This document shows, in pieces, positions 9,451-29,757 of a stretch of DNA of 42,297 nt. Origin of the DNA: Lachnospiraceae bacterium (GTDB lineage: Bacteria > Bacillota > Clostridia > Lachnospirales > Lachnospiraceae). Position numbers and translations under genes: made by a program. Each line of letters begins with the position of its first letter. Position 1 is the stretch's first letter. The stretch lies in NCBI GenBank assembly GCA_017532145.1, contig JAFXJR010000124.1:1-42297 (forward strand), read 5' to 3'. The notes beneath the pieces are model-generated. The model made no database searches, was not told the origin of the DNA, and was given only the letters and a program-made list of their open reading frames with translations.

Positions 9451-9470
9451 CTGCTTATTTCCCTCCTATC

Positions 9471-10124
9471 TTAGCTTTTCAACTTCAAGCTTCCTGTTTC
9501 CTCCAGACGCTGCTTTCTGATTTGTGCAAAATTTCCTTCCACTGCATGGGTATCCTCTGCTACCTCATCCCTGTGTCCCAATACTGTTTTCACCGTCAGC
9601 CACAGTACCCTGATATCCATTCCCAGAGACAGCCCCTTAACATACTCCACATCCTTTTCCAATCGTCTGTCCCAATCAATAAAGTTTCTGCCGCTCACCT
9701 GAGCCAGACCGGTAAGTCCCGGTCTTACTGTATGGCGCAGTCTCTCCTCCTGTGTATAATAGGGGAGATAGGAAACCAGAAGGGGTCTGGGACCGATGAT
9801 ACTCATATCTCCCTTCAAAATATTAAAAAGCTCTGGAAGCTCATCCAGACTGGTAGCCCTGAGTAGCTTTCCAAAACCGGTCAATCTCTCACTATCCGGC
9901 AAAAGCTTTCCCTCTTTATCCTTTTTATCGGTCATCGTTCTGAATTTACACAGAGTAAAAATTTTTTCATCCTTCCCTGGTCTTTCCTGCCGAAATAGAA
10001 TAGGACTGCCCAGCTTGCATCGAACTAAAACCGCCAATACCAACAGCAGGGGACTAAGAATGATTATCCCCATCAAAGACAAAAGAATATCCAGTAATCT
10101 TTTTATATACTTTCCATATATCAT
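9471..10124 (-). CDS. Polyprenyl-phosphate phosphosugar transferase (PglC-like)
   Basis: This monotopic phosphoglycosyltransferase moves a sugar-1-phosphate from a UDP-sugar to undecaprenyl phosphate, the first membrane step of a lipid-linked glycan. The 217 residues show an N-terminal reentrant hydrophobic helix (KRLLDILLSLMGIIILSPLLL), the CKFRTM motif, the catalytic Asp-Glu pair in SLDELPELFN, and IGPRPLL and RPGLTGLAQVSGR. It is of the small PglC size rather than the long WbaP type. ATG at 10124 is preceded by GGAGG at 7 nt. The dehydratase and aminotransferase genes just upstream suggest that its substrate is a diamino- or amino-dideoxy sugar. Confidence 0.93.
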   Translation of the reverse strand: MIYGKYIKRLLDILLSLMGIIILSPLLLVLAVLVRCKLGSPILFRQERPGKDEKIFTLCKFRTMTDKKDKEGKLLPDSERLTGFGKLLRATSLDELPELFNILKGDMSIIGPRPLLVSYLPYYTQEERLRHTVRPGLTGLAQVSGRNFIDWDRRLEKDVEYVKGLSLGMDIRVLWLTVKTVLGHRDEVAEDTHAVEGNFAQIRKQRLEETGSLKLKS

Positions 10125-10144
10125 ACACAAACCTCCGATACCGG

Positions 10145-11269
10145 TTATCCAAACAGGGAGGTTACGGTTTGGATAATCAGCTCCATATCCTCTGAAGTAT
10201 TTTTAATGTCGCTGGGCAGACATAATCCTCTCTGGAAAATATCCTCCGATACGATTTCTTCTCCGGCTGTTATTAAGTCATACTCTGCAAATACCGGTTG
10301 TAAATGCATGGGCTTCCAGATAGGACGACTTTCTGCATTTTCCTTTTCCAGTGCATCCATCACCATACTCGGTGTTACCCGACAGCCTTCCTGAATCGTT
10401 ATACAGGAGAGCCAGCAGTTAGCTTCTCCTTCCTGATTCATCGGATTCATCGTAATTTCAGGTATCTTAGCAAAGGCTTCCTGATAAGTTTGATAGATTT
10501 CCTGTTTTCTTTGCTTATGTTCCTCTAAAGCCAATAGCTGTCCCCTACCAATTCCTGCCAAAATATTGCTCATCCGATAGTTAAAGCCTATCTGAGAATG
10601 CTGGTAATGTCTGGCCGGGTCTCTGGCCTGGGTAGCCAGAAACCTAGCTTTTTTAATTTCCTCTTCATCATCAGAAACCAACATACCACCTCCCGAGGTG
10701 GTAATAATCTTATTGCCATTAAAGGAATAGATACCAAACCGTCCAAAGGTACCGGTATGTCTGCCCTTATAAGTACTGCCTAAAGACTCTGCCGCATCCT
10801 CAATAAGTACTGTTTGATGCTCTCTGCAAATCTCCATAATTTCATCCAGCTTAGCTGGTGTGCCGTATAGATGTACCAAAATCACAGCCTTGGGATTAGG
10901 ATATTTTTCATAGGCTTTTCTTAGTGCCTTCGGACACATATTCCAGGTATCCTTTTCTGAGTCGATAAAAACGGGAGTGGCCTTCTCATAGACAATAGGA
11001 TTACAGGAGGCAGAAAAAGTAAGGGAGGACACGAATACCACGTCCCCTTCCTTTACCCCTGATAATCGCAGTGCCAGATGGATAGCTGCCGTTCCTGCAC
11101 TAAGGGCTGCCCCATAGCCTGCATGAGTATAGGCTACCAGTTCCCTTTCAAAGGCATCCACATGGGGACCTAACGGTGCCACCCAATTGGTAGTAAAAGC
11201 CTCATTTACAAACTCCTGCTCCCTGCCATGCATAGTAGGAGAGGAAAGATAGATTCGTTTTTTTGTCAT
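10145..11269 (-). CDS. DegT/DnrJ/EryC1-type sugar aminotransferase (PglE-like)
   Basis: A 374-residue PLP enzyme that transfers an amino group from glutamate to a 4-keto sugar nucleotide. The PLP lysine is K187 in YSFNGNKIITTSGGG and the cofactor-ring Asp is D158 in LIEDAAESLGS. The opening (IYLSSPTMHGREQEFVNEAF) and TNWVAPLGPHVDAFE fit the PglE/PseC/DesI group. It follows the PglF-like dehydratase gene by 26 nt, so the pair should yield UDP-4-amino-4,6-dideoxy-GlcNAc. No separate PglD-type hexapeptide acetyltransferase is present in the operon; see the GNAT-GT2 fusion. Confidence 0.92.
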   Translation of the reverse strand: MTKKRIYLSSPTMHGREQEFVNEAFTTNWVAPLGPHVDAFERELVAYTHAGYGAALSAGTAAIHLALRLSGVKEGDVVFVSSLTFSASCNPIVYEKATPVFIDSEKDTWNMCPKALRKAYEKYPNPKAVILVHLYGTPAKLDEIMEICREHQTVLIEDAAESLGSTYKGRHTGTFGRFGIYSFNGNKIITTSGGGMLVSDDEEEIKKARFLATQARDPARHYQHSQIGFNYRMSNILAGIGRGQLLALEEHKQRKQEIYQTYQEAFAKIPEITMNPMNQEGEANCWLSCITIQEGCRVTPSMVMDALEKENAESRPIWKPMHLQPVFAEYDLITAGEEIVSEDIFQRGLCLPSDIKNTSEDMELIIQTVTSLFG

Positions 11270-11295
11270 GATAAAGGTCCTCCCTTTTGGTTTGA

Positions 11296-13170
11296 TTATT
11301 CCCCCAGCTTATAATGATAAGTAGGCACAATTTCCTGAATCATCGGACGAATATCCTGGCTTTCATTTTTGGAAGCCTCCTTCAGCTTCTTTAGCTGAAC
11401 AAAAAATTTTGTTTCATCAATCTCAATTGGCTTTCCAATATGAATCAGCTTGTTGGCTGTTTCCTTCATTCCTTCCTCATCCAGCAGCAGTTCCTCATAG
11501 AGCTTCTCTCCCGGCCGGAGACCGGTAAACTCAATTTTAATATCCTCTCCCACCCGATAGCCGGAAAGACGAATCAGGTTTTGAGCTAAATCCAGGATTT
11601 TCACCGGCTCTCCCATATCCAACACAAAGATTTCGCCTCCCTTTGCATAGGCTCCTGCCTGCAGCACCAGGGAAACTGCCTCCGGTATCGTCATAAAATA
11701 ACGAATAATATCCGGGTGAGTCACTGTTACAGGTCCTCCTGCTAAAATCTGCTTTCTGAACAGGGGGATTACACTGCCATTACTGCCCAGCACATTTCCA
11801 AAACGAACTGCCACAAATTCTGTTTCATAGTGATTATTAAAGGTCTGGATAATCATTTCACAGATTCGCTTGCTGGCTCCCATAATATTTGTGGGATTTA
11901 CTGCCTTGTCTGTAGAAATCAGAACGAATCGCTTTACCCCATAAAAGGCAGAAGCCTGAGCAGTCTTCCAGGTTCCAAATACATTGTTTTTTATTGCCTC
12001 ATTGGGACTGTCCTCCATCAGCGGTACATGCTTATGTGCCGCCGCATGGTAAACGATATCCGGCTGGTAGGTCTGAAAAATCCAGTTCATTCGATTGGTA
12101 TTTCTTACCGAAGCAATCAGAACCAATAGCTTTAACTCCGGATACTTTCGTTTTAATTCCTGCTGCATATCGTAGACGTTATTTTCATAAATATCCAAAA
12201 TAATCAGCTGCTTTGGTCGATGACTGGCAATCTGCCGGCAAAGCTCACTACCGATGGAGCCACCACCACCTGTCACCAATACCACCTTATTCTGCACATA
12301 ACCCAGAATGGAATCCATGTCTACAGAAATAGGGTCTCTGCCCAGTAAATCCTCTACCTCCACATCCCTGAGCTTACTAACATTAACCTCTCCATTTACC
12401 AGCTGATACATTCCCGGCAGGGAACGAAGCTTGCAGTTGGTTTCCTTACAGATTTCCAGAATTTTTCTCAGCTCTGAACGGGAGATAGAGGGCATAGCTA
12501 CGATAATTTCATCAATTTCATAGATATCGGCACATTCAATAATCTTGTCTCTGCCTCCCAGTACCTTGATTCCCTGAATATAGCTTCCCCATTTTCCCTG
12601 GTCATCATCAATAATACAGCGGATTACCATAGTACTGAAATTACTGTTGGCAATTTCCTTAATAATTACATTTGCTGCTTCACCTGCACCAATCACCATC
12701 ACCGATATGGTATTTTTCTTATTCTGCTGCTTATGCTTTCTGCTGCGCAGGAAACGATACGAAAAACGACTGGCAAAAATCATAGTAATCAGTACAAAAA
12801 GATATTGAATATAATAACTTTTCGGTACCGGCTGCTGGGTAATTTTCACAAACTCCAGCCCGACCAGATTGACCGCGGCAGAACTGACACAGGCCATAAC
12901 CAGATTTTGCAGCTCTGTCTCTCCGGCAAAAGCCCACAGACTGTGATAGAGCCTGAACAGATAGAAAATCAACAGAGTCAGCAGGATATTCACCGGTAAA
13001 AACCGGGTAACCGGATCCATAAAATGATCCGGTATATGATCCAGACGAAATTCATAACGGATAATCAATGCCATATAGCTTGCAAAAATGATACTGATAA
13101 TATCATAAATAATCAAGCATGTCCTTCGATAAAACAGCTTTGCATTAAACGTTTTTTTCTTGTTTTCCAT
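11296..13170 (-). CDS. UDP-GlcNAc 4,6-dehydratase, membrane type (PglF/CapD-like)
   Basis: The 624-residue protein has four N-terminal membrane helices (to about residue 140), a first Rossmann domain (VMVIGAGEAANVI) and a C-terminal SDR dehydratase domain with the NAD motif TGGGGSIGSEL (about 300-310). As in PglF, the usual SDR tyrosine is replaced: the active site reads STDKAVNPTNIMGASKR, with Thr-Asp-Lys and a later Lys. It forms UDP-4-keto-6-deoxy-GlcNAc for the PglE-like enzyme. ATG at 13170 with AAGGA upstream is preferred; it overlaps the end of the ligase-like gene by 26 nt, and the longer in-frame extension would start with an unrelated basic stretch. Confidence 0.93.
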   Translation of the reverse strand: MENKKKTFNAKLFYRRTCLIIYDIISIIFASYMALIIRYEFRLDHIPDHFMDPVTRFLPVNILLTLLIFYLFRLYHSLWAFAGETELQNLVMACVSSAAVNLVGLEFVKITQQPVPKSYYIQYLFVLITMIFASRFSYRFLRSRKHKQQNKKNTISVMVIGAGEAANVIIKEIANSNFSTMVIRCIIDDDQGKWGSYIQGIKVLGGRDKIIECADIYEIDEIIVAMPSISRSELRKILEICKETNCKLRSLPGMYQLVNGEVNVSKLRDVEVEDLLGRDPISVDMDSILGYVQNKVVLVTGGGGSIGSELCRQIASHRPKQLIILDIYENNVYDMQQELKRKYPELKLLVLIASVRNTNRMNWIFQTYQPDIVYHAAAHKHVPLMEDSPNEAIKNNVFGTWKTAQASAFYGVKRFVLISTDKAVNPTNIMGASKRICEMIIQTFNNHYETEFVAVRFGNVLGSNGSVIPLFRKQILAGGPVTVTHPDIIRYFMTIPEAVSLVLQAGAYAKGGEIFVLDMGEPVKILDLAQNLIRLSGYRVGEDIKIEFTGLRPGEKLYEELLLDEEGMKETANKLIHIGKPIEIDETKFFVQLKKLKEASKNESQDIRPMIQEIVPTYHYKLGE

Positions 13171-15952
13171 TTGATTTTTTTTCCTTTTTGCCCATGTCAA
13201 ACAGCAGGGGTGCCATTACCAGAAGCAGCAGACAGCCTGCCGGATTACACAGATGGAAGATCCATTCTACTAAACCTGCTGTAGCAAAAGCCACCACTAC
13301 TGCCGCAGGAAAAGCAGCACAGGGAATCGTCTCTTTTCTTCTTTGATAAAAGATACAAGCCTGGATAAAGCCTGCTGTTCCTACCAGAATAAACAAAACT
13401 CCTACTAAAATTCCATGGTCATACGCCACTTGAAGGTAGATATTATGTGCATGCACTGCAGTAGTACCGTCCGGTAATACTGCTCCCATTTCCTTATGCC
13501 CCTTCATATCCAGCTGTTCAAGGTAGGATCTGAAAATATCCATTCGACCATTGGCATAGTCTTCTGCTGTTTCATAGACGTTGGTTTCTTCTTCCTCTTC
13601 CACCTCAGTCTCCTCTTCTACAGTAGAAAGCTCAGCCCTGGCGGCCGCATCCGCCATCGCTGCTGCCGCCTGCTCATCCTCCGTTCTGGTACTGATAATA
13701 TCCAGCTGACTGGCATCCACTCCACTGCCATTGTCCTGACTTCCGGTAGTCTCTGCAGCTGTCGTCTGATTACTGCCCTTTCCTTCAGCTTCTGCAGCAG
13801 TATCTGCCGACGGATTCTCCTCCTCATACATATCCGCTACACTGCCTTCCCAAACCACGTCTCCTTCATGATTAAACCTTTTGGCACGATATCTTTGGTA
13901 TTCCTCACTTCTTTCATAGGAAGTACTGCCTCCCTCTGGTATACCGAAAATCTTATTATTAAAGACCTCTGCAAATCGTTCTACCGTAATATAATACATA
14001 GAATCCCACTCATTTCCTCTGGTAATCGGATCCGGATAGGTTTCTATCTCATACTGAAAAACATCATTATAGACGGCAGGCAGAATCCTCTGTGCGGTAA
14101 AAATAACAGGGAAGCATACTGCTACTGCAGCTACCATAGCAACCACCAGTCTGCCGAAGGCTTTCAGCCCTCCTTTTCCCATACTAAGCACCGTCATTAC
14201 TGCTACGGTAATCATCAAAGCTGCCACTGCCAAAAATCCCGTTCTGGAACAGGTAAACAGCATATAGGTGCTGGCAGCCCCCAAGAAAAACAGTTCCTTC
14301 CACAGCAGGGTAAATATGGTCTTCAGGTTTTGCTTTTTCCCCTTCTCCGTCAGCTCAAGGCTTCGGTATTTTTCCACCAGCTTAATCACTGCTGCACACA
14401 GTACAAAGGTCATATAGACTGCTGTTACCGTTACCGTATGGAAGATAAACGGATACCGGGGATAAATCCAGGACAGGAAGGGTCTGCGGGCAAAACAAAA
14501 TATCATACAGCAGATAAAATGCAGCAGCATTCCATTACTTATATTTTGCAGCAAATGTGCCTTTTTATCCCAAAGGGCATAACGAAGATAAAACAGGGTG
14601 TAGGCAATCACTAAAACCACCGGCCACTGTCTGGTATTCCGATACAGAATTAAAAGCAGAAAGAAAATCCCTAAAAGTACACCAAACCAGGGAGAAATCC
14701 GCATATCCCACTGCTTTTTACGGATTCTGTTCACTGCCTGAAGTACCAGATTCAATATAAAGAAGCCTGCCAGTACCACTGCTGCCATTCCCCATCGAAG
14801 GATTTTGATATCCCATTCATCCATAGCAATATAGTCCACAAAATAGAGATGATACCATATCAGCACAGCCCCGGCCACCACTGCATACACAGGCAGTAAA
14901 GGATTCAACAGCTCCTTTTTCCTGCTCATACACAGAGCTGCCAGAATAAAATATACCATAAACTGCCGCTCTGCCAGCCTGTGATGAATGTCATACAGTC
15001 CATTCATATAGCTGCAGCAGGCCCAGATAGCCGCTGCAAAAAACAGTATCTGCAGCCAATCCTGCCCCTGCTCCTTTATCCTTTGTATCAAAGGCTTATA
15101 GGCATCCTTGTCCCTTTTTTGATTTACCCAGTACAACAGGAAAAGGCTGCACAGTAAAGCTCCCAGGGTATAAAAAAGATTGTCCAAAAGCTGTCCACTG
15201 AAAAACTTTCTAATGGTAATCGTCCAGAGAGCTGCCAAAGTTCCCACACCAATCAGCGTATTGGCAGTAAACCGAAAGGCACCTTCCACTGTTACCAGCC
15301 TGTCCTTTTTGGTCTTTCTGAAATACAGCTCCACAGCCCCCACTACTGCTGCCGCAAACACCAGCAGTATGGCATCCAGCATAAATACCTTATGCTTTCT
15401 TAAGGGAACAGAATAATTATATTCTCCGATAATATTGTATCCTTCCAGCTGGTCATAGTTAAAAACCAGCCGGCTTACATAGGGAGTACCTGCGGATTCT
15501 GTTTCCTCTAAACCAAACCGAATCCGACTGCCCTTATTTCCCTGTAAAAAGAAGTAATAATCCTTTCCCACCTCCATATCTTCATTGACATAGACGGTGC
15601 AGAAGCCGGGAAGATTGGCAAAACGGGTATCCACCTCTGTATCAAACAGAATCTCCATATTGGAATCCAGCATACGGAAGATAAAGTTTTCTACCTTCTG
15701 ATCCCTATCCCATCCATTTTCAAATTCGGTAATATAGAGGTTTACTGTCCCCAGATGATTGTACTGGGCAATAAAACGCTGCAGCATATAGTCCTCGTCC
15801 ACATAGTCGGAAGCCCCTGCCAGAATCTGATTACTGACAGAAGGGATGGTTTCCTTCCACATTCGTATGGGATAGATGGTAATCATGATAAATAAAATTA
15901 AAATCAGGACGACGTACTGTATAGCACGACTTAATTTTACTGTTTTATACAT
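13145..15952 (-). CDS. O-antigen ligase/polymerase-like membrane protein (Wzy_C)
   Basis: A 935-residue protein with about 14 membrane helices. After one helix it has a folded external domain (about residues 45-185), then a long membrane region, and near the C-terminus the Wzy_C-type loop with GRMDIFRSYLEQLDMKGH and VHAHNIYLQVAYDHG (His834 and His836). Such proteins polymerise or transfer lipid-linked glycans at the outer membrane face, including O-oligosaccharyltransferases that glycosylate protein. An extra, strongly acidic and Ala/Ser-rich stretch of about 95 residues (705-800, with EEETEVEEEEET) sits inside the catalytic loop. ATG at 15952 has GGAGAAAATAAG before it. Whether it is a polymerase, ligase or protein glycosyltransferase is open; no PglB-type enzyme is in the operon. 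Confidence 0.82.
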   Translation of the reverse strand: MYKTVKLSRAIQYVVLILILFIMITIYPIRMWKETIPSVSNQILAGASDYVDEDYMLQRFIAQYNHLGTVNLYITEFENGWDRDQKVENFIFRMLDSNMEILFDTEVDTRFANLPGFCTVYVNEDMEVGKDYYFFLQGNKGSRIRFGLEETESAGTPYVSRLVFNYDQLEGYNIIGEYNYSVPLRKHKVFMLDAILLVFAAAVVGAVELYFRKTKKDRLVTVEGAFRFTANTLIGVGTLAALWTITIRKFFSGQLLDNLFYTLGALLCSLFLLYWVNQKRDKDAYKPLIQRIKEQGQDWLQILFFAAAIWACCSYMNGLYDIHHRLAERQFMVYFILAALCMSRKKELLNPLLPVYAVVAGAVLIWYHLYFVDYIAMDEWDIKILRWGMAAVVLAGFFILNLVLQAVNRIRKKQWDMRISPWFGVLLGIFFLLLILYRNTRQWPVVLVIAYTLFYLRYALWDKKAHLLQNISNGMLLHFICCMIFCFARRPFLSWIYPRYPFIFHTVTVTAVYMTFVLCAAVIKLVEKYRSLELTEKGKKQNLKTIFTLLWKELFFLGAASTYMLFTCSRTGFLAVAALMITVAVMTVLSMGKGGLKAFGRLVVAMVAAVAVCFPVIFTAQRILPAVYNDVFQYEIETYPDPITRGNEWDSMYYITVERFAEVFNNKIFGIPEGGSTSYERSEEYQRYRAKRFNHEGDVVWEGSVADMYEEENPSADTAAEAEGKGSNQTTAAETTGSQDNGSGVDASQLDIISTRTEDEQAAAAMADAAARAELSTVEEETEVEEEEETNVYETAEDYANGRMDIFRSYLEQLDMKGHKEMGAVLPDGTTAVHAHNIYLQVAYDHGILVGVLFILVGTAGFIQACIFYQRRKETIPCAAFPAAVVVAFATAGLVEWIFHLCNPAGCLLLLVMAPLLFDMGKKEKKSNGKQEKNV

Positions 15953-16010: not shown

Positions 16011-17906
16011 CTATGGAATTGGGGAAGACTTAGCCTCCCAAAGCAAAAAACACCATAATGGCAGGGCAAACCAGAGAATCAACACATATCTGGGCAAACA
16101 GGTAGGACCTAAAAGGACAGTCAGCCAGATGAACAGCAGCAGCACAAAGGGCAGCAACAGGTGATAGTGCTTTCGATGGCAGATATAACCGGCAGAAAAG
16201 GCATAAGCCCAAAAGAGAAAGCCGGGAGAAAACAACAGAGAAAGCACGGGAAGCTTCTGCTGGGTAATTTCCAGGGACAGACTCCGATAGATTTCATCCA
16301 GCCAGGGCAGCAGGCTCTGTCTCTCACCAGGTCTTTCCACCTCATAGCCAAAAAACGAGCTGTCCTCATAGGTATAAGTGAAAGCCTGATTGCCCCGATA
16401 CACATCGATTACTGTATCCGGATACCAGAAACCATAGGAGGTCATTAACCAGGCGTCCAGATAGAGAGAGGAATATGTCCACCCCAATTCCCACCAAAGC
16501 TTTATATATTTGGCAGGATTTTGCTGAAATACATGGGACTGAAAGTCTACTTTTACTCCATCAGAAAGCTTGGGCGAATACCTGGATAAAGCCTCCTCAG
16601 GAAGAATTTCATAAAGAATCCCACATTGTTCTTCTGTCAGGCTGTCTTTTTCATTCTGATATACTCGGGACAGCTGCTGAATGGGTACGGTGAGCATTTC
16701 TCCACTTCCTGGGTCTCTGGCAGACAAAGCTGCTTCCAGCCCCTTATTTAAGCATAGCCAGGCTGCCACAACCGATACCAGCAAAACCAGCATTTTTTTT
16801 CGATAACCCTTCATCACTACTACCAGAACAGGCATAAATACAAAAAGGGCATACCAGCCATTGTGTCGAAAGCTTCCCATGACCAAAGCAGTAACACCAA
16901 AAAATAAAAGTTGCTTCCAGCTGCTGAAAAACCTCCCCCTTTGCTTGCCCATATTCAGCAAGACCACTAAAAGCAACAGGCAGGCTCCGCTGAAAATTCC
17001 ATCTTTGGCAGAACAAAGAACAAACATGGGAATCACGGGGAAAAAGGCAAAATAGACTATGCTTCCTCCTGTTATCCAGCGTGAGCAACCCTCTTTTTTC
17101 ATATAAGAAACTACTGTGCTAAACACACCTGACATCAGTAGCATTTGCAACAGGGTATAGGATGCAATTCCTAAATTATAAGAGCCTGTCACCTTATGGA
17201 CTGCCAGAATAATTCCTCCTAACAAGACTACATGAGGCAGGGGATGGTGGGTAGTAAAGTTTCTGGTCTGTATCTGGTTTAGCTCATCCTGAGCATCATA
17301 GACAAAAAAGCCCGGATAGACAGCTAAAAATACAGGAAGCCAAGCCAGCAGGAAAACAATCGCTGTCATGATCAGCTGTTTTTTTTCTGACAGGTTCTCC
17401 CACCACTCCATCGCCTTGTTCAACCCACATAATATTTTCTGCTTGATAGCTGTACAGCCTCTTTCTGCTGATTGAACAGAAAATGTATCTATAGAAGCTT
17501 TTTCTATATCAACTGTATCCAACCAAATCCAGGCTGCCTTTATCAATAGTGCAAACACTCCTGTCCATACCAGGATAGAAATCCACATCCATCCATTCCC
17601 AAGCTCTACACTACCTGCTGCCTCCAGCTGCACGCCCAGAGACAGACACAGGCTAAAGCCAAAGGCTAAAAGCCCTGCTGCCAAACTGCTCCATGCTGCT
17701 ACTTTTTTCTTCCCAGCTTCTTTAATCTGTCCACAAAGGCTGATTGCCTTTCCTAACATCCCCCAAAGAGCCAGCCAGATAAGAAGGGTAAGCCAGCTAT
17801 TACTGATAGCCAGCCCATTTCCCTTCAGATTCAGCATCTGCGGCAGGCAAAGCACTGCTGCCAGAGAAAGACCAAAAGCCTCTACTTTCTTATCTTTCTT
17901 CCCCAT
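16011..17906 (-). CDS. DUF6020-like membrane protein, probable GT-C enzyme
   Basis: A 631-residue polytopic protein with about 13 hydrophobic segments. The loop VYPGFFVYDAQDELNQIQTRNFTTHHPLPHVVLLGG after the fifth or sixth helix is the hallmark I associate with DUF6020 proteins, which resemble GT-C enzymes of the outer membrane face. A long external segment near the C-terminus (about 425-545) may bind acceptor. Its first codons overlap the end of the GNAT-GT2 gene by 17 nt, which suggests that it uses the polyprenyl-phosphate sugar made by that enzyme. Substrate is unknown. Confidence 0.8.
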   Translation of the reverse strand: MGKKDKKVEAFGLSLAAVLCLPQMLNLKGNGLAISNSWLTLLIWLALWGMLGKAISLCGQIKEAGKKKVAAWSSLAAGLLAFGFSLCLSLGVQLEAAGSVELGNGWMWISILVWTGVFALLIKAAWIWLDTVDIEKASIDTFSVQSAERGCTAIKQKILCGLNKAMEWWENLSEKKQLIMTAIVFLLAWLPVFLAVYPGFFVYDAQDELNQIQTRNFTTHHPLPHVVLLGGIILAVHKVTGSYNLGIASYTLLQMLLMSGVFSTVVSYMKKEGCSRWITGGSIVYFAFFPVIPMFVLCSAKDGIFSGACLLLLVVLLNMGKQRGRFFSSWKQLLFFGVTALVMGSFRHNGWYALFVFMPVLVVVMKGYRKKMLVLLVSVVAAWLCLNKGLEAALSARDPGSGEMLTVPIQQLSRVYQNEKDSLTEEQCGILYEILPEEALSRYSPKLSDGVKVDFQSHVFQQNPAKYIKLWWELGWTYSSLYLDAWLMTSYGFWYPDTVIDVYRGNQAFTYTYEDSSFFGYEVERPGERQSLLPWLDEIYRSLSLEITQQKLPVLSLLFSPGFLFWAYAFSAGYICHRKHYHLLLPFVLLLFIWLTVLLGPTCLPRYVLILWFALPLWCFLLWEAKSSPIP

Positions 17907-19413
17907 TCACCGTCTCCCTAATCACATATTGGGGAGAATTATTCATGGAAATATACATCCTTCCCACATACTCCCCTACCAGTCCCAGCATAATCATGGT
18001 CATTCCTCCCATAAATACAATAGCTGCCATCAAAGAACTAAAGCCCAGAGGCACATTGGGGTTGACCAGCTTCTTCACTATGGTATAAATCCCATAAAGG
18101 AATCCAATCGCTGAACAGGTACAGCCTATGGCAGTGGCAATCCGCAGAGGCTTCACGCTAAATGCAGTAAAGCCGTTAAACCACAATCCTAACAGCTTAC
18201 GAAAGGTATAGCCTGATACTCCCACCTCCCGCTCTCTGTGTGCCACAGTTACATTGCTAATCTTATGGGTCGTCCTTAGTACCAAACCAATTACATAGGG
18301 GTAAGCATTGGTATACTTTTTCATATCCTCTATCACAAATCGACGGGCAGCAAAATAACTGGATACATACAAATCCTTGGGCTTTCCCAGCATAACCTTT
18401 GCCATTTCCTCATTCATATACGTCCCAAAATTCCGAAAGAGAGAATGCTTTTTATGCTCATATTTTGCATATACCACATCCTGTCCCTCTTCAATAGCTG
18501 CCAGCAGCTTTCCTACCTCATCAGCCGGTGTCTGTCCATCGTCATCCAGACAGACCACAATATCTCCTCTAACGAAACGAAAGCCTGCCATCAGTGCTGC
18601 ATGCTGACCAAAATTTTTTGCCAGATTGATTCCTCTGATTTTCTCATCCTCTCTACAGAGTCCGCGAATCACGGCAAAGGTATCATCCGGTGAACTGTCA
18701 TTGACTAAAATCACTTCATAGCTATAGAGCTTACCTTCCTTCTGCAACAGCTCCATACTGCCCTTAATTTCTGCCACCACTCCTGTCAAAGTAGATGCAG
18801 AGCGATAGCAGGGAATGACAAAGCTGATTAGCTTCTCCTTTTCCCGTTCCACAGACATGAAAAACATATCCTTTCTCTCTCCGTCAGAACACTCCACCGC
18901 CTTTAATATGCCCTCTTTGACAAATCCTGCCTTCTCATAGCTTTTTATGGCAGGAATATTGTCCGTAAACACACGTAAAACCACTTTTTCCAATCCCAAC
19001 TGTTTAAAAGCGTACTCCACTGCCAATCTGGCTGCCTCGGAACCATATCCTCTGCCTGCAGCAGACTCCTCTCCGATAAAGATTCCATATTCTGCCTCCT
19101 GCTTCTTATCGTCAATATCCCGGAAATAGACGCTACCTACAGGCCGCCTGCTCTCCTTTTCACACAGGATAAACTGTATCGCCCGTCCTGTATGTATCAT
19201 GGTATCCGTCCATTTCTGATGGCTCTCCGGGGTGAAATCCTCCCGATAGATAAAACAGCAGCGTACCCGGGAGCTGTTTCTCCATCGGACAATATTTCCT
19301 GTGTCCTGTTCCTCCATTGGACGCAGGAAGACTTTTTCCCCTTCTATCCTGACAGCAGCCTCCTGCTGCCTGTCTCTCTCTTCCCTCTGCCCTGTCCCCA
19401 TTTCCTGCTGCAT
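17890..19413 (-). CDS. GNAT acetyltransferase fused to polyprenyl-phosphate glycosyltransferase (GT2)
   Basis: One uninterrupted 507-residue frame with two enzymes. Residues about 22-190 form a GNAT domain: IEGEKVFLRPMEEQD at the start, the acetyl-CoA loop GRGYGSEA (120-127) and DNIPAIKSYEKAGF. Residues 195-430 form a GT2 domain of the DPM1/GtrB/ArnC kind: SFVIPCYRSAS, VNDSSPDDT (237-245), the donor-binding DDD at 290-292 in CLDDDGQTPADE, and then two membrane helices (about 422-447 and 457-485) typical of enzymes that make undecaprenyl-phosphate sugars. GGAGG lies 7 nt before the ATG at 19413, so the GNAT part is a real start and not an annotation artefact. WecE lies two genes upstream, and WecD, the partner of WecE in enterobacteria, is also a GNAT. 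I infer acetylation of a 4-amino sugar followed by lipid loading. Confidence 0.92.
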   Translation of the reverse strand: MQQEMGTGQREERDRQQEAAVRIEGEKVFLRPMEEQDTGNIVRWRNSSRVRCCFIYREDFTPESHQKWTDTMIHTGRAIQFILCEKESRRPVGSVYFRDIDDKKQEAEYGIFIGEESAAGRGYGSEAARLAVEYAFKQLGLEKVVLRVFTDNIPAIKSYEKAGFVKEGILKAVECSDGERKDMFFMSVEREKEKLISFVIPCYRSASTLTGVVAEIKGSMELLQKEGKLYSYEVILVNDSSPDDTFAVIRGLCREDEKIRGINLAKNFGQHAALMAGFRFVRGDIVVCLDDDGQTPADEVGKLLAAIEEGQDVVYAKYEHKKHSLFRNFGTYMNEEMAKVMLGKPKDLYVSSYFAARRFVIEDMKKYTNAYPYVIGLVLRTTHKISNVTVAHREREVGVSGYTFRKLLGLWFNGFTAFSVKPLRIATAIGCTCSAIGFLYGIYTIVKKLVNPNVPLGFSSLMAAIVFMGGMTMIMLGLVGEYVGRMYISMNNSPQYVIRETVNGEER

Positions 19414-19564: not shown

Positions 19565-21490
19565 TCAGCGCAGCACTGACTTCCCTTCCTTTTCCAGTCT
19601 CTCTACCTGATACACACCCAGCAAACCACAGATTTCATCGGTCAATGTAAATCTTACCTCTATATTCTGATCGGCAAAATAGCGGCCAAGCTCCTCTGTT
19701 CCCTTTTCCAGCTCCACCATAAGATAGACCTGCTCCATATCCAACAGCCCCTCCTCCATGGAAGGAATACCAAACTGCTCCAGCTTCTGCCGATACAGAG
19801 GACTCTTTACCAGCCATCCCCCCATTAAATCATAGTTTCCCACTCTCTGGGGAGTCCCTGCAAACAGCTTCTCGGAATAAGGAGTAGAAGCATACGGCTC
19901 CATCGGATAAGAAACGGAAGAATAGACATCCATAAAATAAAAATTCTCCGGATGTCTGCCACAGTACTCCTTCCATTCTCTATCCACTGCAGCAGCGGCC
20001 TCTCTGGCAATAAAAGCTCTGTCTGTCTCCTGTATACGTTGAGGCAAAGTTACCAAAAGTAAAAGGATTAAAGCCAATGGAACCACAGAGGAAACTATCC
20101 TTCTGCCTGTTGTCGAGCCTGCAATTAAACGGGTTATCCTGGCTAATCCTCCCTTTCGGGTTTCTGATTTGGTCGGACACTCATCCATCCACCATCCACA
20201 GCACTCCATCTGAAGCATTCCTGCCAAAATACAAAATTCCATCAAATACAGAGAGTGAGTAATTCGCACTGGGTCTCGTCCCTTTACCAGAATAAACAGC
20301 CACAGTGCCATCCTTACTCCATAAAGCAGTACCAGCTTCCACAATCGCTTCCATAGTCCCCATACTGAATTTTCTTTCCAGACAGTCAAAATCATCACCA
20401 CTGCCACTCCCAGATATCCCAATACCACTGCCAGATTCCAGGGATAGTCGTCGGCAGTCTTATGGAAGGTTCGATAGAGGGAAAGCCTTATTTTTTCCAC
20501 CAGCAACGGAATAAATGCTGTATTTTCCTGCTTTTTTTGTGCCTGATATGTGGCAATCTCATCCAACAGCTCTGCATCCACAGCCTCCTGTAAGCCAAAA
20601 TTATACTGACTCAGCAGCTGATTCTGTTCACTTTCCGTTATCTCTAAGCGATGATATAACTCCTCATTTCCCTCATAGGAAGGAATCCCCTGAAAGTCAT
20701 ACACCTCTGTCCGACGTTCAAAAAAATGCAGAAACTCCTTCCACTCCGCACTGCTGTAGGCTGCTGTATCTGCAAGGGAAAAAATTAACATTCCTGCCAG
20801 AATACCGCCTATTATAGAAAAATATTTGCTTACATTAGTTCTGGTAAATATTTTTTCCTCTAAAGACCAGCGATATAAGCCTGCCACTGCAAAAAAGGGA
20901 AGCATCAAAAGCAGCAGCTCCGTTCTAAAAAGGTAGGAAAGCCAGGCCAGTAGAACCGAAACCAGATTATTTTTCAAAAAAGAAGCGATTCCTCCTGTTT
21001 TCTGCCCACCCTCCTCTAAACCATCAATAGTCCTTATCTGGGTAATAAACAAAAAAGCAGCGGCGGCTGCCAGCATGGCGGCCGTAAAGGTATACTGGAC
21101 AAAAATCAACTGCTGAGACAGCAGTGACAGAATGAGAATCCCTTCCCCTCCCAACAGCAGCAGCTTCCCCCTTCTGCTTCTTATTCCCTGCAGACTTCTG
21201 TGTACGACCAGTCCAATACAGCCATACTGGCACAGCCAAAGCACTATACCATAGACAGGCAGCCCGGGAAAAGCCCTGTATGCCAGAGCGATAACCGCTC
21301 CTAATGGATAGAGCATCTGCAGGCTTCTTCCTTCCGGACTGCCGGTATAGATACCGGAGACAATATCCTTCATGGTTACATCATCATTTAAGTCATAATA
21401 ATAGTCATACCTTAGCCCTATCACAACAGCAAGCAGTAACAGAAAGCCTCCTGTCCATATCAGGTTTTCATCCTTTTTTATCCTATGCAT
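19565..21490 (-). CDS. Large membrane protein, probable GT-C glycosyltransferase
   Basis: A 641-residue protein with about 11 membrane segments. The first external loop has YDYYYDLNDDVTMKDIVSG, an acidic Asp-Asp motif right after helix one, as in GT-C enzymes that take a sugar from polyprenyl phosphate. A long hydrophilic external stretch (about residues 255-330) and a C-terminal extracellular domain of roughly 130 residues (from about 510) follow. The ATG overlaps the end of the wecE-like gene by 8 nt. I do not recognise a named family with certainty; glycan transfer is inferred from topology and context. Confidence 0.72.
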   Translation of the reverse strand: MHRIKKDENLIWTGGFLLLLAVVIGLRYDYYYDLNDDVTMKDIVSGIYTGSPEGRSLQMLYPLGAVIALAYRAFPGLPVYGIVLWLCQYGCIGLVVHRSLQGIRSRRGKLLLLGGEGILILSLLSQQLIFVQYTFTAAMLAAAAAFLFITQIRTIDGLEEGGQKTGGIASFLKNNLVSVLLAWLSYLFRTELLLLMLPFFAVAGLYRWSLEEKIFTRTNVSKYFSIIGGILAGMLIFSLADTAAYSSAEWKEFLHFFERRTEVYDFQGIPSYEGNEELYHRLEITESEQNQLLSQYNFGLQEAVDAELLDEIATYQAQKKQENTAFIPLLVEKIRLSLYRTFHKTADDYPWNLAVVLGYLGVAVVMILTVWKENSVWGLWKRLWKLVLLYGVRMALWLFILVKGRDPVRITHSLYLMEFCILAGMLQMECCGWWMDECPTKSETRKGGLARITRLIAGSTTGRRIVSSVVPLALILLLLVTLPQRIQETDRAFIAREAAAAVDREWKEYCGRHPENFYFMDVYSSVSYPMEPYASTPYSEKLFAGTPQRVGNYDLMGGWLVKSPLYRQKLEQFGIPSMEEGLLDMEQVYLMVELEKGTEELGRYFADQNIEVRFTLTDEICGLLGVYQVERLEKEGKSVLR

Positions 21491-22610
21491 AAAATTCCTT
21501 CACCTTATCAGCAATCCTATCCACTTCCTCCTCCGTCAGCCTGTAGTACAGAGGCAGTCTCAACAGACGTTCGCTTTCCTTTGTGGTATATCTGTCCTCC
21601 CCATGAAAGCGTCCAAACCGCAGACCTGCCGGAGCAGAATGTAAGGGAACATAGTGGAACACCGCTAAAATACCATTTTCCTTTAAAAAATACAGCAATG
21701 CCGTTCTTTCCTCCACATCTGCAGCCTTTAGATAAAACATATGACCATTATGGACACAGCCCTTGGGAATTACCGGAAGTTGCGTTTTTCCTCTCTCCTC
21801 CAGAATCTGCAGTTGCTGATAATACCTGTTCCACAACCTGATCCTGGTCTCATTGATTTCCTCTGCCAGCTCCAGCTGAGCATAGAGATAGGCCGCATTC
21901 ATATCACTGGGCAGGTAGGATGATCCAAAATTGACCCAACGGTATTTATCCACCTGTCCCCGAAAATATTTACTTCTGTCCGTTCCCTTTTCACGAAAAA
22001 TCTCTGCATCCTCAATATATTTCTTATCCTGAATCAGCAAGGCTCCTCCCTCGCCCATACTGTAATTCTTTGTTTCATGAAAGCTAAAGCAGCCAAAGTC
22101 CCCCAGAGTTCCCAAAGCTCTTCCCTGATAGGAGGCCATCATTCCCTGGGCGGCATCCTCTACCACAACCAGACCATATTTTTCTGCAATCTCCATAATC
22201 CTATTCATTTCACAGCTCACTCCTGCATAGTGAACTACCGCAATCGCTTTCGTTTTCTCTGTGATAGCAGCTTCAATCAGATTTTCATCAATATTCATCG
22301 TATCCGGGCGGATATCCACAAATACCGCTTTTGCTCCTCTCAGCACAAATGCGTCTGCTGTGGAAACAAAGGTATAGGAGGGCATAATCACCTCATCCCC
22401 TTCCCGGATATCTGCCAATAATGCCGCCATCTCCAGTGCATGGGTACAGGAGGTGGTCAGCAGACATTTTTGGGTTTTTGTCCTTTCCTCAATCCACTGG
22501 CTGCATCTGGCAGTAAACTCACCATCTCCACAAATTTTCTGGTTTTCCACTGCCTGACGCATATATTCCATTTCCTTCCCCGTAAAGGGAGGTACATTAA
22601 AATTAATCAT
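21483..22610 (-). CDS. wecE: dTDP-4-amino-4,6-dideoxygalactose transaminase-like (WecE/RffA)
   Basis: A 375-residue DegT/DnrJ-type PLP aminotransferase. The opening INFNVPPFTGKEMEYM, IYGDGEF-like KICGDGEFT, VVVEDAAQGMMASYQGRALGT with D152 and CFSFHETKNYSMGEGG with PLP lysine K181 are the marks of WecE, which aminates dTDP-4-keto-6-deoxyglucose to dTDP-Fuc4N in enterobacterial common antigen synthesis. It differs in sequence and branch from the PglE-like enzyme of the same operon, so the operon should make two distinct 4-amino sugars. No rmlA or rmlB is in the window, so the dTDP-sugar must come from elsewhere. A GNAT partner like WecD appears only as the N-terminal half of the fusion at 17890-19413. 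Confidence 0.9.
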   Translation of the reverse strand: MINFNVPPFTGKEMEYMRQAVENQKICGDGEFTARCSQWIEERTKTQKCLLTTSCTHALEMAALLADIREGDEVIMPSYTFVSTADAFVLRGAKAVFVDIRPDTMNIDENLIEAAITEKTKAIAVVHYAGVSCEMNRIMEIAEKYGLVVVEDAAQGMMASYQGRALGTLGDFGCFSFHETKNYSMGEGGALLIQDKKYIEDAEIFREKGTDRSKYFRGQVDKYRWVNFGSSYLPSDMNAAYLYAQLELAEEINETRIRLWNRYYQQLQILEERGKTQLPVIPKGCVHNGHMFYLKAADVEERTALLYFLKENGILAVFHYVPLHSAPAGLRFGRFHGEDRYTTKESERLLRLPLYYRLTEEEVDRIADKVKEFYA

Positions 22611-27565: not shown

Positions 27566-27997
27566 CTATTTTTTAAAAACCCAAAGCTTGCTGAAAACAT
27601 AATTAGTCGCAATCACTACAATATTACAGATAAACTTAGAAAAAGTGTCATCCACATCTCCCATATCTACTAACACATACATCAGCAGCATCTCCATCAA
27701 TCCAGTAATTATCCTGGCACTGACAAAGGTGGTAAATTCCTTCCCTACCGCCAGCCTGCCCTCTGTCTTGCTTTTAAAAACAAAGGTACGGTTTGTCCAG
27801 TAAGCAAAAAGCACTGCGGTAATCCAGGCAAACAGGGTGGCCAACAGTACCAGTAACACCTTGTCGTTGTCTGCTCCCAATACAGTAGCAGCCAGCTGAT
27901 AGGCTCCCATATTGACTAAAAATGCCAGCACTCCAAAAAAAAGATAGTTTATTGTTTCCTCAAAACGGATATATAAATCCTTCATCCACTTTATCAT
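27566..27997 (-). CDS. gtrA: GtrA-family membrane protein, probable polyprenyl-phosphate sugar flippase
   Basis: 143 residues with four membrane helices and the GtrA signature: INYLFFGVLAFLVNMGAYQLA at the start, YWTNRTFVFKSK in the middle loop and ATNYVFSKLWVFKK at the end. GtrA proteins are thought to turn undecaprenyl-phosphate sugars to the outer face for GT-C enzymes. The ATG at 27997 shares a base with the TGA of the ABC-transporter gene (TGATG), so translation is coupled. Together with the GT2 domain at 17890-19413 and the GT-C-like proteins it forms a Gtr-type set. Confidence 0.92.
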   Translation of the reverse strand: MIKWMKDLYIRFEETINYLFFGVLAFLVNMGAYQLAATVLGADNDKVLLVLLATLFAWITAVLFAYWTNRTFVFKSKTEGRLAVGKEFTTFVSARIITGLMEMLLMYVLVDMGDVDDTFSKFICNIVVIATNYVFSKLWVFKK

Positions 27998-29757
27998 CAA
28001 TCTTCCCCTCGCTCCTTCACCACCTGTCCCTGCTCCACACGGTAGACAATATCACAGTTTTCTATTGTCTGAAGCCTATGGGCAATAATAATCAGCGTCT
28101 TCCGTCCATGAAGCCGATTAATAGAATCCATAATGGCAGCCTCTGTCTCATTATCCAAAGCGGAAGTAGCCTCATCCAATACCAGTACCTCCGGATCCTC
28201 AAACAAGGCTCTGGCAATACCAATCCTCTGCCTCTGTCCTCCTGACAGACGGATTCCTCTTTCCCCAATACCAGTATCCAACCCCTCCGGCAGACCTCTT
28301 ACAAATTCATCCAGCTGTGCTTCCTTTAATGCCTGCCACACCTTTTCCTCCTCTATCTCCTCATCTGCATAGCCAAAGGCCACATTTTTTCGGATGGTAG
28401 AATCCAGCATAAAGATAGTCTGTGGAATATAACCAATATTTTTCAGCCAGGACTCATAGTGCTGTCTTACCTCTACACCGTCTGCCAGAATTTCTCCCGA
28501 CTGCAGCTGCAGCAAGCCTAAGAGGATGTCCACCACGGTCGTCTTGCCTGAACCGGAAGAACCTACAATACCTACCGACCTGCCCACCGGTATAGACATG
28601 GTAGCATGGTTAAAAATCAGAACCTCTGAATTAGGATAGTGATAGGTAATATCCTTTAAGACAATTTCTTTTTTCACTGACAGCTTTTCCACCTGAGGTT
28701 TCTCCCGATAGACAGCCTCGTCATAATTCACATTTTTATCCCGGATTTCCTCCTGTAAACTATCGGTCACTCCCATAAAAAATGGCTCAAAGTAGGAAAT
28801 AGAGGTAAGATAGTTATTGATTCGGTTAGCACTGGGAATCAAACGCATAGCTGCCACAGCCAGAGTCAGCAGCTGAGGCATAATCTCTGTTACCTGTGTT
28901 CCCTCCCCAATCCGCATCATCATATACAGCAGCATACCCGCAATAGCCACCGTTTCAATAAGCAGCCTGGGGGTTGCATTATAAAGGTTGTACCTTTGTA
29001 CTGCACTAACGTAACCTGCCCCACATTTACAGTATTCATTGATAAAATAGCTTTCCTTATTGGCCACCTTAATTTCCTTAATCCCCATCACTGACTGGTC
29101 AATCCATTTATAGAGTCCACTGTAATAGTCCTGATTTTCCTCCCCTGCCTTACGCATAATCGGCTTTAATATCCACTTAATCACTACCAGTACCACAATC
29201 AGCAGGGCGGCTACTGTAGCCGTCATGATAACATCCGTCATCAGACAATAAAAAGTTAGACAGGCAAAAACGATGATTTCGCTGGCCAACTGAAGTAAAT
29301 TTAGAATCAGTCCATACATATTGTTGACATCGGAGGTAATATTCCGCTGAATCACCGAAGTATCCGCATTGAGATAATACTCATAGGGCCTTTTCATAAA
29401 GTTAATCATCATCCGACGGGAGGTGGCAAACTGGTTGCTGTAAACAAACCGGAACTGAAGCTTGCTCTGGAAAAACAGATAGGCATTTTTGGTGGCAAAA
29501 ACCAGAATCAAACAGGCCATAATCACAACAGAAAACTGCTCCATGCTTTTCATTCCCAAACTCTGATATAGACTGGCCATAAGAGCATTCTTTTCCAAGA
29601 CATTTGGATCGGTAATCACGGTTGCTACCTGGTAAATCAGTCCCACACCCAACAGCTCCAAAGCTGCTCCCACAAGCATCACAAATACCAGAAACACCAT
29701 AATCTTCTTTTGTCTTCTATCCAATAATATATTCAGCTTCTTTAATATTTTTTTCAC
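27997..29757 (-). CDS. ABC transporter, fused permease-ATPase (PglK/MsbA-like glycolipid flippase)
   Basis: A 586-residue half transporter. Six membrane helices fill residues 15-320; the ATPase has Walker A GSSGSGKTT (399-407), Q-loop YIPQ, signature LSGGQRQ (504-510), Walker B VLVLDEA (524-530) and the switch His560. The N-terminal half, with ELLGVGLIYQVATVITDP and FVYSNQFATSRRMMINFMKRPYEYYL, resembles PglK, which flips the undecaprenyl-diphosphate heptasaccharide in Campylobacter. Being the first gene after the promoter at 29853-29882 it is probably the flippase for the PglC/GT4-built lipid glycan. Likely forms a homodimer. Confidence 0.93.
   Translation of the reverse strand: MKKILKKLNILLDRRQKKIMVFLVFVMLVGAALELLGVGLIYQVATVITDPNVLEKNALMASLYQSLGMKSMEQFSVVIMACLILVFATKNAYLFFQSKLQFRFVYSNQFATSRRMMINFMKRPYEYYLNADTSVIQRNITSDVNNMYGLILNLLQLASEIIVFACLTFYCLMTDVIMTATVAALLIVVLVVIKWILKPIMRKAGEENQDYYSGLYKWIDQSVMGIKEIKVANKESYFINEYCKCGAGYVSAVQRYNLYNATPRLLIETVAIAGMLLYMMMRIGEGTQVTEIMPQLLTLAVAAMRLIPSANRINNYLTSISYFEPFFMGVTDSLQEEIRDKNVNYDEAVYREKPQVEKLSVKKEIVLKDITYHYPNSEVLIFNHATMSIPVGRSVGIVGSSGSGKTTVVDILLGLLQLQSGEILADGVEVRQHYESWLKNIGYIPQTIFMLDSTIRKNVAFGYADEEIEEEKVWQALKEAQLDEFVRGLPEGLDTGIGERGIRLSGGQRQRIGIARALFEDPEVLVLDEATSALDNETEAAIMDSINRLHGRKTLIIIAHRLQTIENCDIVYRVEQGQVVKERGED

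Follow-up and report, generated by a model that had tools for sequence, protein, structure and literature searches.

Fusion of an acetyltransferase and a lipid-directed glycosyltransferase

Contig JAFXJR010000124.1 of a Lachnospiraceae bacterium (assembly GCA_017532145.1), whose full length of 42,297 nucleotides is referred to here as the window, encodes a protein in which a GNAT acetyltransferase is followed by a family 2 glycosyltransferase (GT2). This raises the question whether the two enzymes are naturally joined and which reactions their fusion connects. The GNAT-GT2 protein is a real fusion, conserved within one clade and, as far as searched, a new domain architecture. It probably catalyses two consecutive cytoplasmic reactions in an Arn-like export of a 4-amino sugar, giving undecaprenyl phosphate (Und-P) loaded with N-acetylated 4-amino-4,6-dideoxygalactose (Und-P-Fuc4NAc). 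The gene is composed as follows:

17890..19413, minus strand: GNAT-GT2 fusion protein, 507 aa (open reading frame list, Pfam, relatives, AlphaFold2 model)
18919..19332, minus strand: GNAT acetyltransferase domain, PseH-like, residues 28-165, GRGYG acetyl-CoA loop and Tyr159 intact
18835..18846, minus strand: linker, about residues 190-193, from the last GNAT strand to the first GT2 strand (model secondary structure, junctions)
18325..18825, minus strand: GT2 catalytic domain of GT-A fold, residues 197-363, ArnC/GtrB-like, DDD motif at about 290-292 (Pfam, sequence, fold)
17944..18153, minus strand: two C-terminal membrane helices, residues 421-450 and 457-490 (hydropathy, AlphaFold2 model)

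The frame of 507 codons starts with ATG, contains no internal stop and is preceded by the good ribosome site already mentioned in a preliminary description of this DNA (GGAGGG, with the ATG six bases further on, read by eye). A second translation start may occur inside the fusion, at Met183 or Met186, because AAAGGA precedes both ATGs in the window sequence. Pfam assigned PF13302 (GNAT, residues 28-165, E 3e-24, 86.6 bits) and PF00535 (GT2, residues 197-363, E 4e-27), both above cut-off. In the AlphaFold2 model (pLDDT 89.7, pTM 0.80), the last strand of the GNAT spans residues 180-189 and the first strand of the GT2 residues 194-202, leaving a linker of about four residues; hydropathy of the glycosyltransferase half and the model agree on two C-terminal membrane helices. 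Together with the Foldseek matches given below, this bears out the initial assignment of a full GNAT joined to a GtrB-like GT2 with two terminal membrane helices.

The first half belongs to the GNAT superfamily, as seen from its intact acetyl-CoA loop, PF13302 and Foldseek matches to GNATs such as SpeG. The loop glycines G120, G122 and G124 as well as Arg147 and Asn152 are kept in at least 96% of 53 GNATs. Tyr159, which presumably stands at the position of the GNAT general acid, is kept in 89% of them. The best family model for this half is PseH (TIGR03585), at 86.1 bits still under the cut-off of 93.1; ten relatives, including those beside PseB/PseC, score 71.9-92.7 bits. An orthologue of WecD, the role in which the GNAT had originally been cast, is ruled out by model score (TIGR02382, 22.3 bits, cut-off 195.1). 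By sequence, the nearest solved structures are spermidine and aminoglycoside acetyltransferases; WecD and PseH structures are not among the listed PDB matches, which is not evidence against either.

For the GT2 half, the closest solved relative by sequence is ArnC (145 bits), followed by GtrB (124) and dolichol-phosphate mannose synthase (49). All of the top 25 Foldseek matches are ArnC, GtrB or dolichyl phosphate mannose synthase, with TM-scores by target of 0.76-0.84 for the ArnC rows, and the ArnC family model (NF007986) is not reached (172.4 bits, cut-off 529). Judged by GT-A domain, helices and predicted fold, this half is a polyprenyl-phosphate GT2 of the ArnC/GtrB/dolichol-phosphate mannose synthase type. 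By analogy, it would transfer a sugar to undecaprenyl phosphate; the ArnC entries are titled as transferase of N-formylated 4-amino-arabinose to this lipid.

Distribution and origin of the fusion

Relatives were compared at 99 distinct loci, comprising 9 fused, 44 GNAT-adjacent, 24 ATP-grasp and 22 other loci. Left out of this count were the short copies L009-L037 (most of them refetched with longer flanks, L009 not), L001, the truncated L057 and L058, L060 and L002-L008 (no close GT2), and the duplicates L063 and L076. A single frame spanning both halves was found in L001 (the window), L009, L038-L044 and L055, corresponding to 9 distinct Lachnospiraceae loci, three of which are strain records (28-4, 526-35, IMSAGC_002); L009, a fused copy from the same genus, may stem from the same genome as L039. 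Nine distinct fused loci in one clade rule out an assembly artefact or chance, and the fusion is natural, as first proposed.

In a GT2 tree of the 99 rows (quick method, SH-aLRT support, no bootstrap), the nine fused rows form one clade (SH-aLRT 99), nested inside a 60-row clade (SH-aLRT 96) that further holds the 44 GNAT-adjacent rows, seven rows in which no acyl enzyme was found and none with an ATP-grasp ligase. The GNAT is fused or lies within 300 bp in 53 of these 60 rows; among the 44 adjacent loci, it is placed upstream of the GT2 in 43 and downstream in L097. In five distinct unfused loci (L010, L011, L012, L013, L045), only one stop interrupts an otherwise shared frame of both halves, a state that, from these sequences, is likely the route to fusion. 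A single origin of the fusion is most likely, in which two neighboring genes lost the stop that parted them.

The very short linker described before holds for the window and is not constant: the stretch from the last GNAT Met to the SFVIP strand of the GT2 counts 10 residues in the window and 8 to 30 in the fused loci, with the longest in L044 (by eye). Channelling between the two active sites, which had been proposed for the fusion, is possible but gains no support from the relatives, in which the halves are separate genes and the linker length varies within the fused clade.

The same two observations would fit the idea that the GNAT acts on an unrelated substrate (polyamine, protein, antibiotic) and that the fusion is a neutral result of gene neighborhood, as would the spermidine and aminoglycoside acetyltransferases that are its nearest solved relatives. 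We regard this as highly improbable in view of the fused or nearby GNAT in 53 rows of the 60-row clade, of PseH, a sugar-nucleotide 4-N-acetyltransferase, as its best family model, and of other amine-acylating enzyme types near the GT2 in GNAT-less relatives.

No fusion was found outside Lachnospiraceae among 398 genomes of the phylum: six match at E<=1e-60, including the window's own and one of the same family, and the other four are unfused by their open frames. Some open-frame lengths suggested longer fusions (e.g., G590, 516 aa), but at the G590 locus, L148, the GT2 is a separate frame. In L148, from outside the family, another GNAT and the GT2 follow wecE and share a reading frame that one stop divides, which parallels the pre-fusion state of the window's pair.

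Coupling to wecE and identity of the sugar

The sugar can be approached through the transaminase gene encoded close to the fusion:

21483..22610, minus strand: wecE, dTDP-4-amino-4,6-dideoxygalactose transaminase (NF008687, 641 bits vs 375)

Its product also passes TIGR02379 (631.6 vs 434.9 bits), and RmlA and RmlB are found over cut-off in the window's genome. The distance from wecE to the GT2 half is 2.4-2.6 kb in all nine fused loci. When a wecE gene had to be 55% or more identical and to lie on the fetched sequence (about 10 kb at most), it accompanied the GT2 in 9/9 fused, 33/44 GNAT-adjacent, 20/24 ATP-grasp and 9/22 other loci. Three of the 11 GNAT-adjacent loci without local wecE are on short contigs (L056, L065, L066). 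Of the remaining eight, six belong to searched genomes (L068, L048/L076, L085, L089, L090, L091; not L049 and L059), and all six genomes carry wecE: about 9 kb off and partly outside the fetched stretch in G290 (L090), on the same contig about 12 and 20 kb off in G198 and G344, and on other contigs in the remaining three.

A survey of 397 Lachnospiraceae genomes (the window's family, 334 genera) gave the same picture. The query matched in 318 genomes at E<=1e-30 and in 118 at E<=1e-65, and WecE was over cut-off in 134. Both GT2 (E<=1e-65) and WecE were present in 110 genomes, GT2 alone in 8, WecE alone in 24 and neither in 255. wecE is therefore carried by 110 of 118 genomes with the GT2 versus 24 of 279 without it (Fisher's test 3e-63, which ignores relatedness; the E<=1e-65 line was chosen after the table had been seen). 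Six of the 24 WecE-only genomes match the query at 1e-50 to 1e-54 (G026, G102, G136, G201, G388, G394). The predicted co-occurrence with wecE was thus recovered at the level of loci as well as of genomes.

Several observations weigh against a dTDP-linked sugar from WecE as the substrate of every such pair. PseB and/or PseC are found over cut-off near the GNAT-GT2 pair in L091, L051, L049, L085 and L059, both of them directly upstream of it in L091 and L051, and homologues occur near L050, L052, L053, L075, L079 and the GNAT-less L088. Further along the loci L051-L053, wecE stands beside a different GT2. The window itself contains a CapD/DegT pair, in addition to a PseC over cut-off on another contig of its genome:

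10145..13200, minus strand: second amino-sugar module, CapD-type dehydratase and LegC/PseC-like aminotransferase (Pfam, family models)

This module is an alternative source of a 4-amino sugar; the PseC cut-off is passed by neither aminotransferase of the window. The expectation that the GNAT follows wecE holds for most loci but not strictly, as some pairs stand beside PseB/PseC instead.

The GNAT-GT2 pair might accordingly use a UDP-linked 4-amino sugar (e.g., UDP-6-deoxy-AltNAc4N) from a PseB/PseC or CapD/DegT pathway, with the GNAT functionally of PseH type. Besides the neighbors in five loci and the homologues near six more, the PseH scores (86 bits, ten relatives 72-93) and the downstream CapD-type dehydratase and LegC-like aminotransferase with the genomic PseC would agree with this. 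For the window we consider it unlikely, with a small but appreciable probability. wecE is close in 9/9 fused loci, and 6/6 searched genomes of the long-flank GNAT-GT2 loci in which wecE was not found within 10 kb hold the gene. L054 and L070 are contiguous wecE-GNAT-GT2 loci with no CapD/DegT2 homologue in flanks of 9.5-10.5 kb. L049, L050, L051-L053, L059, L085 and L091 group in a GT2 subclade of 14 rows, distinct from that of the window; L075, L079 and L088 do not. Because the PseB/PseC loci except these three group in this way, the GNAT-GT2 pair may have switched sugar in the 14-row subclade.

Two side observations concern these loci. L091, L051-L053 and L049 combine PseB and/or PseC with a following PseH-like GNAT and ArnC-like GT2, possibly leading to a polyprenyl-phosphate-linked 6-deoxy-AltdiNAc. 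L051-L053, L054 and L070 possess a second GT2 of ArnC type, which shares about 28-29% identity with that of the window and in L051-L053 stands directly before wecE.

Since some GNAT-GT2 pairs lie beside PseB/PseC and not wecE, and in view of the CapD/DegT pair and the genomic PseC, we infer Fuc4NAc for the window from the wecE link. By this link, the pathway originally suggested (Und-P-Fuc4NAc or similar) appears mostly right, with its exact sugar still conditional. A variant within the same pathway, whose probability overlaps with that of Und-P-Fuc4NAc, would have the transaminase make the isomer dTDP-4-amino-4,6-dideoxyglucose (dTDP-Qui4N), with Und-P-Qui4NAc as product. TIGR02379 is named dTDP-4-amino-4,6-dideoxy-D-glucose transaminase, so that C4 is not fixed by the label; with the galacto-named equivalog NF008687 also far over its cut-off (641 vs 375), this variant is rather improbable.

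Export genes and proposed pathway

Three further membrane proteins of the window are candidates for the steps following sugar transfer:

19565..21490, minus strand: 641-aa membrane protein of predicted GT-C fold, encoded between wecE and the fusion (structure model, Foldseek best match ArnT)
16011..17906, minus strand: DUF6020 polytopic membrane protein, 17-nt overlap with the fusion's stop (Pfam, hydropathy)
27566..28000, minus strand: GtrA-family small membrane protein (PF04138, 75 bits)

The 641-aa protein was assigned to no Pfam family. It was modelled as GT-C, with ArnT ranking first in Foldseek, and VIA-align ranks 1-48 appear, by entry titles, to be GT-C enzymes or subunits. An Asn-Asp-Asp after its first helix is invariant in 31 sequences. 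Based on the model, it is likely the enzyme that uses the lipid-linked sugar outside, and the DUF6020 protein is a possible second GT-C enzyme. The GtrA-family protein, which scores 18.3 bits for the narrower NCBIfam gtrA_1 (cut-off 50), is a candidate flippase of the polyprenyl-phosphate sugar. Fusion, GtrA-family gene and predicted GT-C gene share one gene run and make up the gene set of a multi-component transmembrane glycosylation system; by their proximity, the GT-A, GtrA and GT-C proteins would act jointly on one lipid-linked sugar. The gene order of the window is kept in seven other fused loci over the extent of the fetched stretch, and also in L041 up to the contig end after DUF6020.

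From this gene set we infer the following reactions, their order, the flippase role and the acceptor. RmlA and RmlB would provide dTDP-4-keto-6-deoxyglucose, which WecE would aminate to dTDP-Fuc4N. The GNAT half would acetylate its 4-amino group using acetyl-CoA, and the ArnC-like GT2 half would move the acetylated sugar to undecaprenyl phosphate. The resulting Und-P-Fuc4NAc would be flipped by the GtrA-family protein and added to a cell-surface glycan by the ArnT-like GT-C protein, perhaps also by the DUF6020 protein.

In a variant of this scheme, overlapping with it in probability, the GNAT would act after the transfer and convert Und-P-Fuc4N to Und-P-Fuc4NAc. Fusion to a membrane-bound GT2 would put the GNAT near the lipid product, and no result orders both steps. 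Characterized routes, however, acylate the nucleotide sugar first, as seen for WecD (excerpt of PMC7439462) and from the formamido-arabinose in the name of ArnC, which makes late acetylation quite improbable.

Apparent exchange of the acyl enzyme in related loci

At loci with more distant GT2s (about 42-57% identity), the window-type GNAT is absent. Twenty neighbor genes scanned at such loci comprised nine ATP-grasp ligases, one GNAT of another Pfam family (L127) and ten others; four of the nine ligases possess an L-amino-acid-ligase C-terminal domain (LAL_C2). Searched with a profile built from the nine ligases, 24 of the 99 loci showed an ATP-grasp ligase (E<1e-60) no further than 4.2 kb from the GT2. 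Of 27 hits of this kind, 13 were within 250 bp, and none belonged to the 53 loci with the GNAT fused or within 300 bp. Weaker matches (E 1e-6 to 1e-25) were located 5-9.5 kb downstream in 8/9 fused loci and several GNAT loci; the window's own match comes from the PylC-like gene in its second amino-sugar module. Along the GT2 tree, the acyl-enzyme labels cluster, with 14 changes vs 47.5 in shuffles. Besides the ATP-grasp ligases, another GNAT (L112, L127, L148) or a formyltransferase (L147) is found near the GT2 where the window-type GNAT is absent, and all of these belong to enzyme types able to acylate amines.

This suggests that the N-acyl step is exchangeable between GNAT, ATP-grasp ligase and formyltransferase. 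The simplest reading is a capping of the 4-amine of the WecE sugar before loading, with caps differing between loci; by their family, the ATP-grasp ligases near the GT2 would aminoacylate the sugar. A limit on such an exchange is set by other GNATs, found on their own in L112 and alongside an ATP-grasp ligase in L127 and L148, and by 9 of the 71 wecE-linked loci, which show no acyl enzyme. We give roughly even chances to the broader proposal that the fusion is one endpoint of an unrecognized pathway, in which the WecE sugar receives one of several interchangeable caps (acetyl, aminoacyl, formyl) on its 4-amine and a co-evolving ArnC-like GT2 loads it onto undecaprenyl phosphate. If true, exchangeable caps would give previously undescribed Und-P-linked N-acyl-Fuc4N donors diversifying the surface glycans of gut Lachnospiraceae.

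ATP-grasp ligases near wecE and an ArnC-like GT2 were recorded in L119, L132, L135, L138, L140, L120, L128, L131 and L104, a possible pathway to an aminoacylated lipid-linked sugar. L147, outside Lachnospiraceae, has a formyltransferase, a WbqC-like protein, an ArnC-like GT2 and WecE in a row, possibly a formyl version resembling Arn; phmmer searches with the single L147 sequences as queries found neither formyltransferase nor WbqC within 6 kb of the GT2 at the 99 loci. A hexapeptide acetyltransferase as a substitute for the GNAT in 47 GNAT-less loci was set aside after a crude pattern scan, which matched the GT2 itself in seven loci and other frames in three (L110, L123, L130).

Relation to known systems

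The Arn pathway (ArnA, ArnC, ArnT), which transfers 4-amino-arabinose (L-Ara4N) to lipid A, N-acylates a 4-amino sugar and attaches it to Und-P through a GT2 whose fold is shared by the GT2 half of the fusion; a GT-C enzyme then uses the sugar on the outer side. The GT2 and GT-C protein described here top-match the ArnC and ArnT folds. The systems differ in the acyl group (acetyl by a GNAT here, formyl by ArnA there), in the sugar (a dTDP-linked WecE product vs UDP-4-amino-arabinose) and in the host (Lachnospiraceae vs Gram-negatives). An ArnD-like deformylase was not seen in a Pfam scan of 20 window proteins, with no search aimed at ArnD. In addition, the acyl enzyme is fused to the GT2 here, whereas ArnA is fused to a dehydrogenase (excerpt of PMC12650200), an example of fused steps in 4-amino-sugar export.

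As in the enterobacterial common antigen pathway, WecE would be followed by a GNAT-fold acetyltransferase giving dTDP-Fuc4NAc; there, according to an excerpt of PMC7439462, WecD makes this sugar and WecF uses it directly. The GNAT described here is not WecD by score, and WecF moves Fuc4NAc straight from dTDP to the growing lipid-diphosphate-linked chain, whereas the route of the window probably passes through a polyprenyl-phosphate sugar. PseH shares the acetylation of the 4-amino group of an amino sugar, UDP-linked in its case, and is the best model for the GNAT half, which nevertheless scores under its cut-off, is fused to a GT2 and has no PseC-passing aminotransferase in the window.

Gram-positive multi-component systems of the CsbB-GtcA-YfhO type likewise combine a membrane GT-A enzyme, a GtrA-type flippase and a GT-C enzyme; the sugars named in the excerpt of PMC8035078 are galactose, glucose and N-acetylglucosamine (GlcNAc), and a built-in acetyltransferase is not mentioned in it. 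The principle of an acetyltransferase-glycosyltransferase fusion already has a precedent, with another type of acetyltransferase, in mimivirus L142, in which an N-terminal sugar 4-N-acetyltransferase precedes a predicted C-terminal glycosyltransferase in a cluster with a 4-aminotransferase (excerpt of PMC9614988, whose table gives the reverse domain order of its text). That acetyltransferase was modelled on PglB, is a predicted trimer and not a GNAT, and was tested on UDP-viosamine; polyprenyl-phosphate loading is not claimed in the same excerpt. Neither a GNAT-GT2 fusion nor Und-P-Fuc4NAc was found described in the titles and abstract starts of papers listed by searches of open-licence literature, which is weak evidence of absence. 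As far as searched, the view that no named family has this order stands for GNAT-GT2, with L142 as an acetyltransferase-first counterpart of another type.

If right, our reading carries the Arn logic (acylate, load, flip, transfer) over to a second sugar and into Firmicutes common in the gut, and it points to the lipid-linked donor that should be sought. The fusion unites the first two steps in one polypeptide, expressible as one unit. Because acetylating, aminoacylating and formylating enzymes appear to replace each other near similar GT2s, the acyl specificity of the GT2 becomes directly testable.

Flanking genes of the window

The GtrA-family gene is flanked by a transporter gene:

27997..29757, minus strand: PglK-like ABC transporter, flanking module (Pfam and family models)

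Its product is likely the flippase of a lipid-diphosphate-linked repeat. On the other side of the fusion, positions 8467-13200 (minus strand) encode a CapD-type UDP-GlcNAc 4,6-dehydratase, a LegC-like aminotransferase and a PglC-like Bac_transf protein, plus the PylC-like ATP-grasp protein; the latter sits where a PglD-type acetyltransferase might be expected, which suggests an aminoacyl cap.

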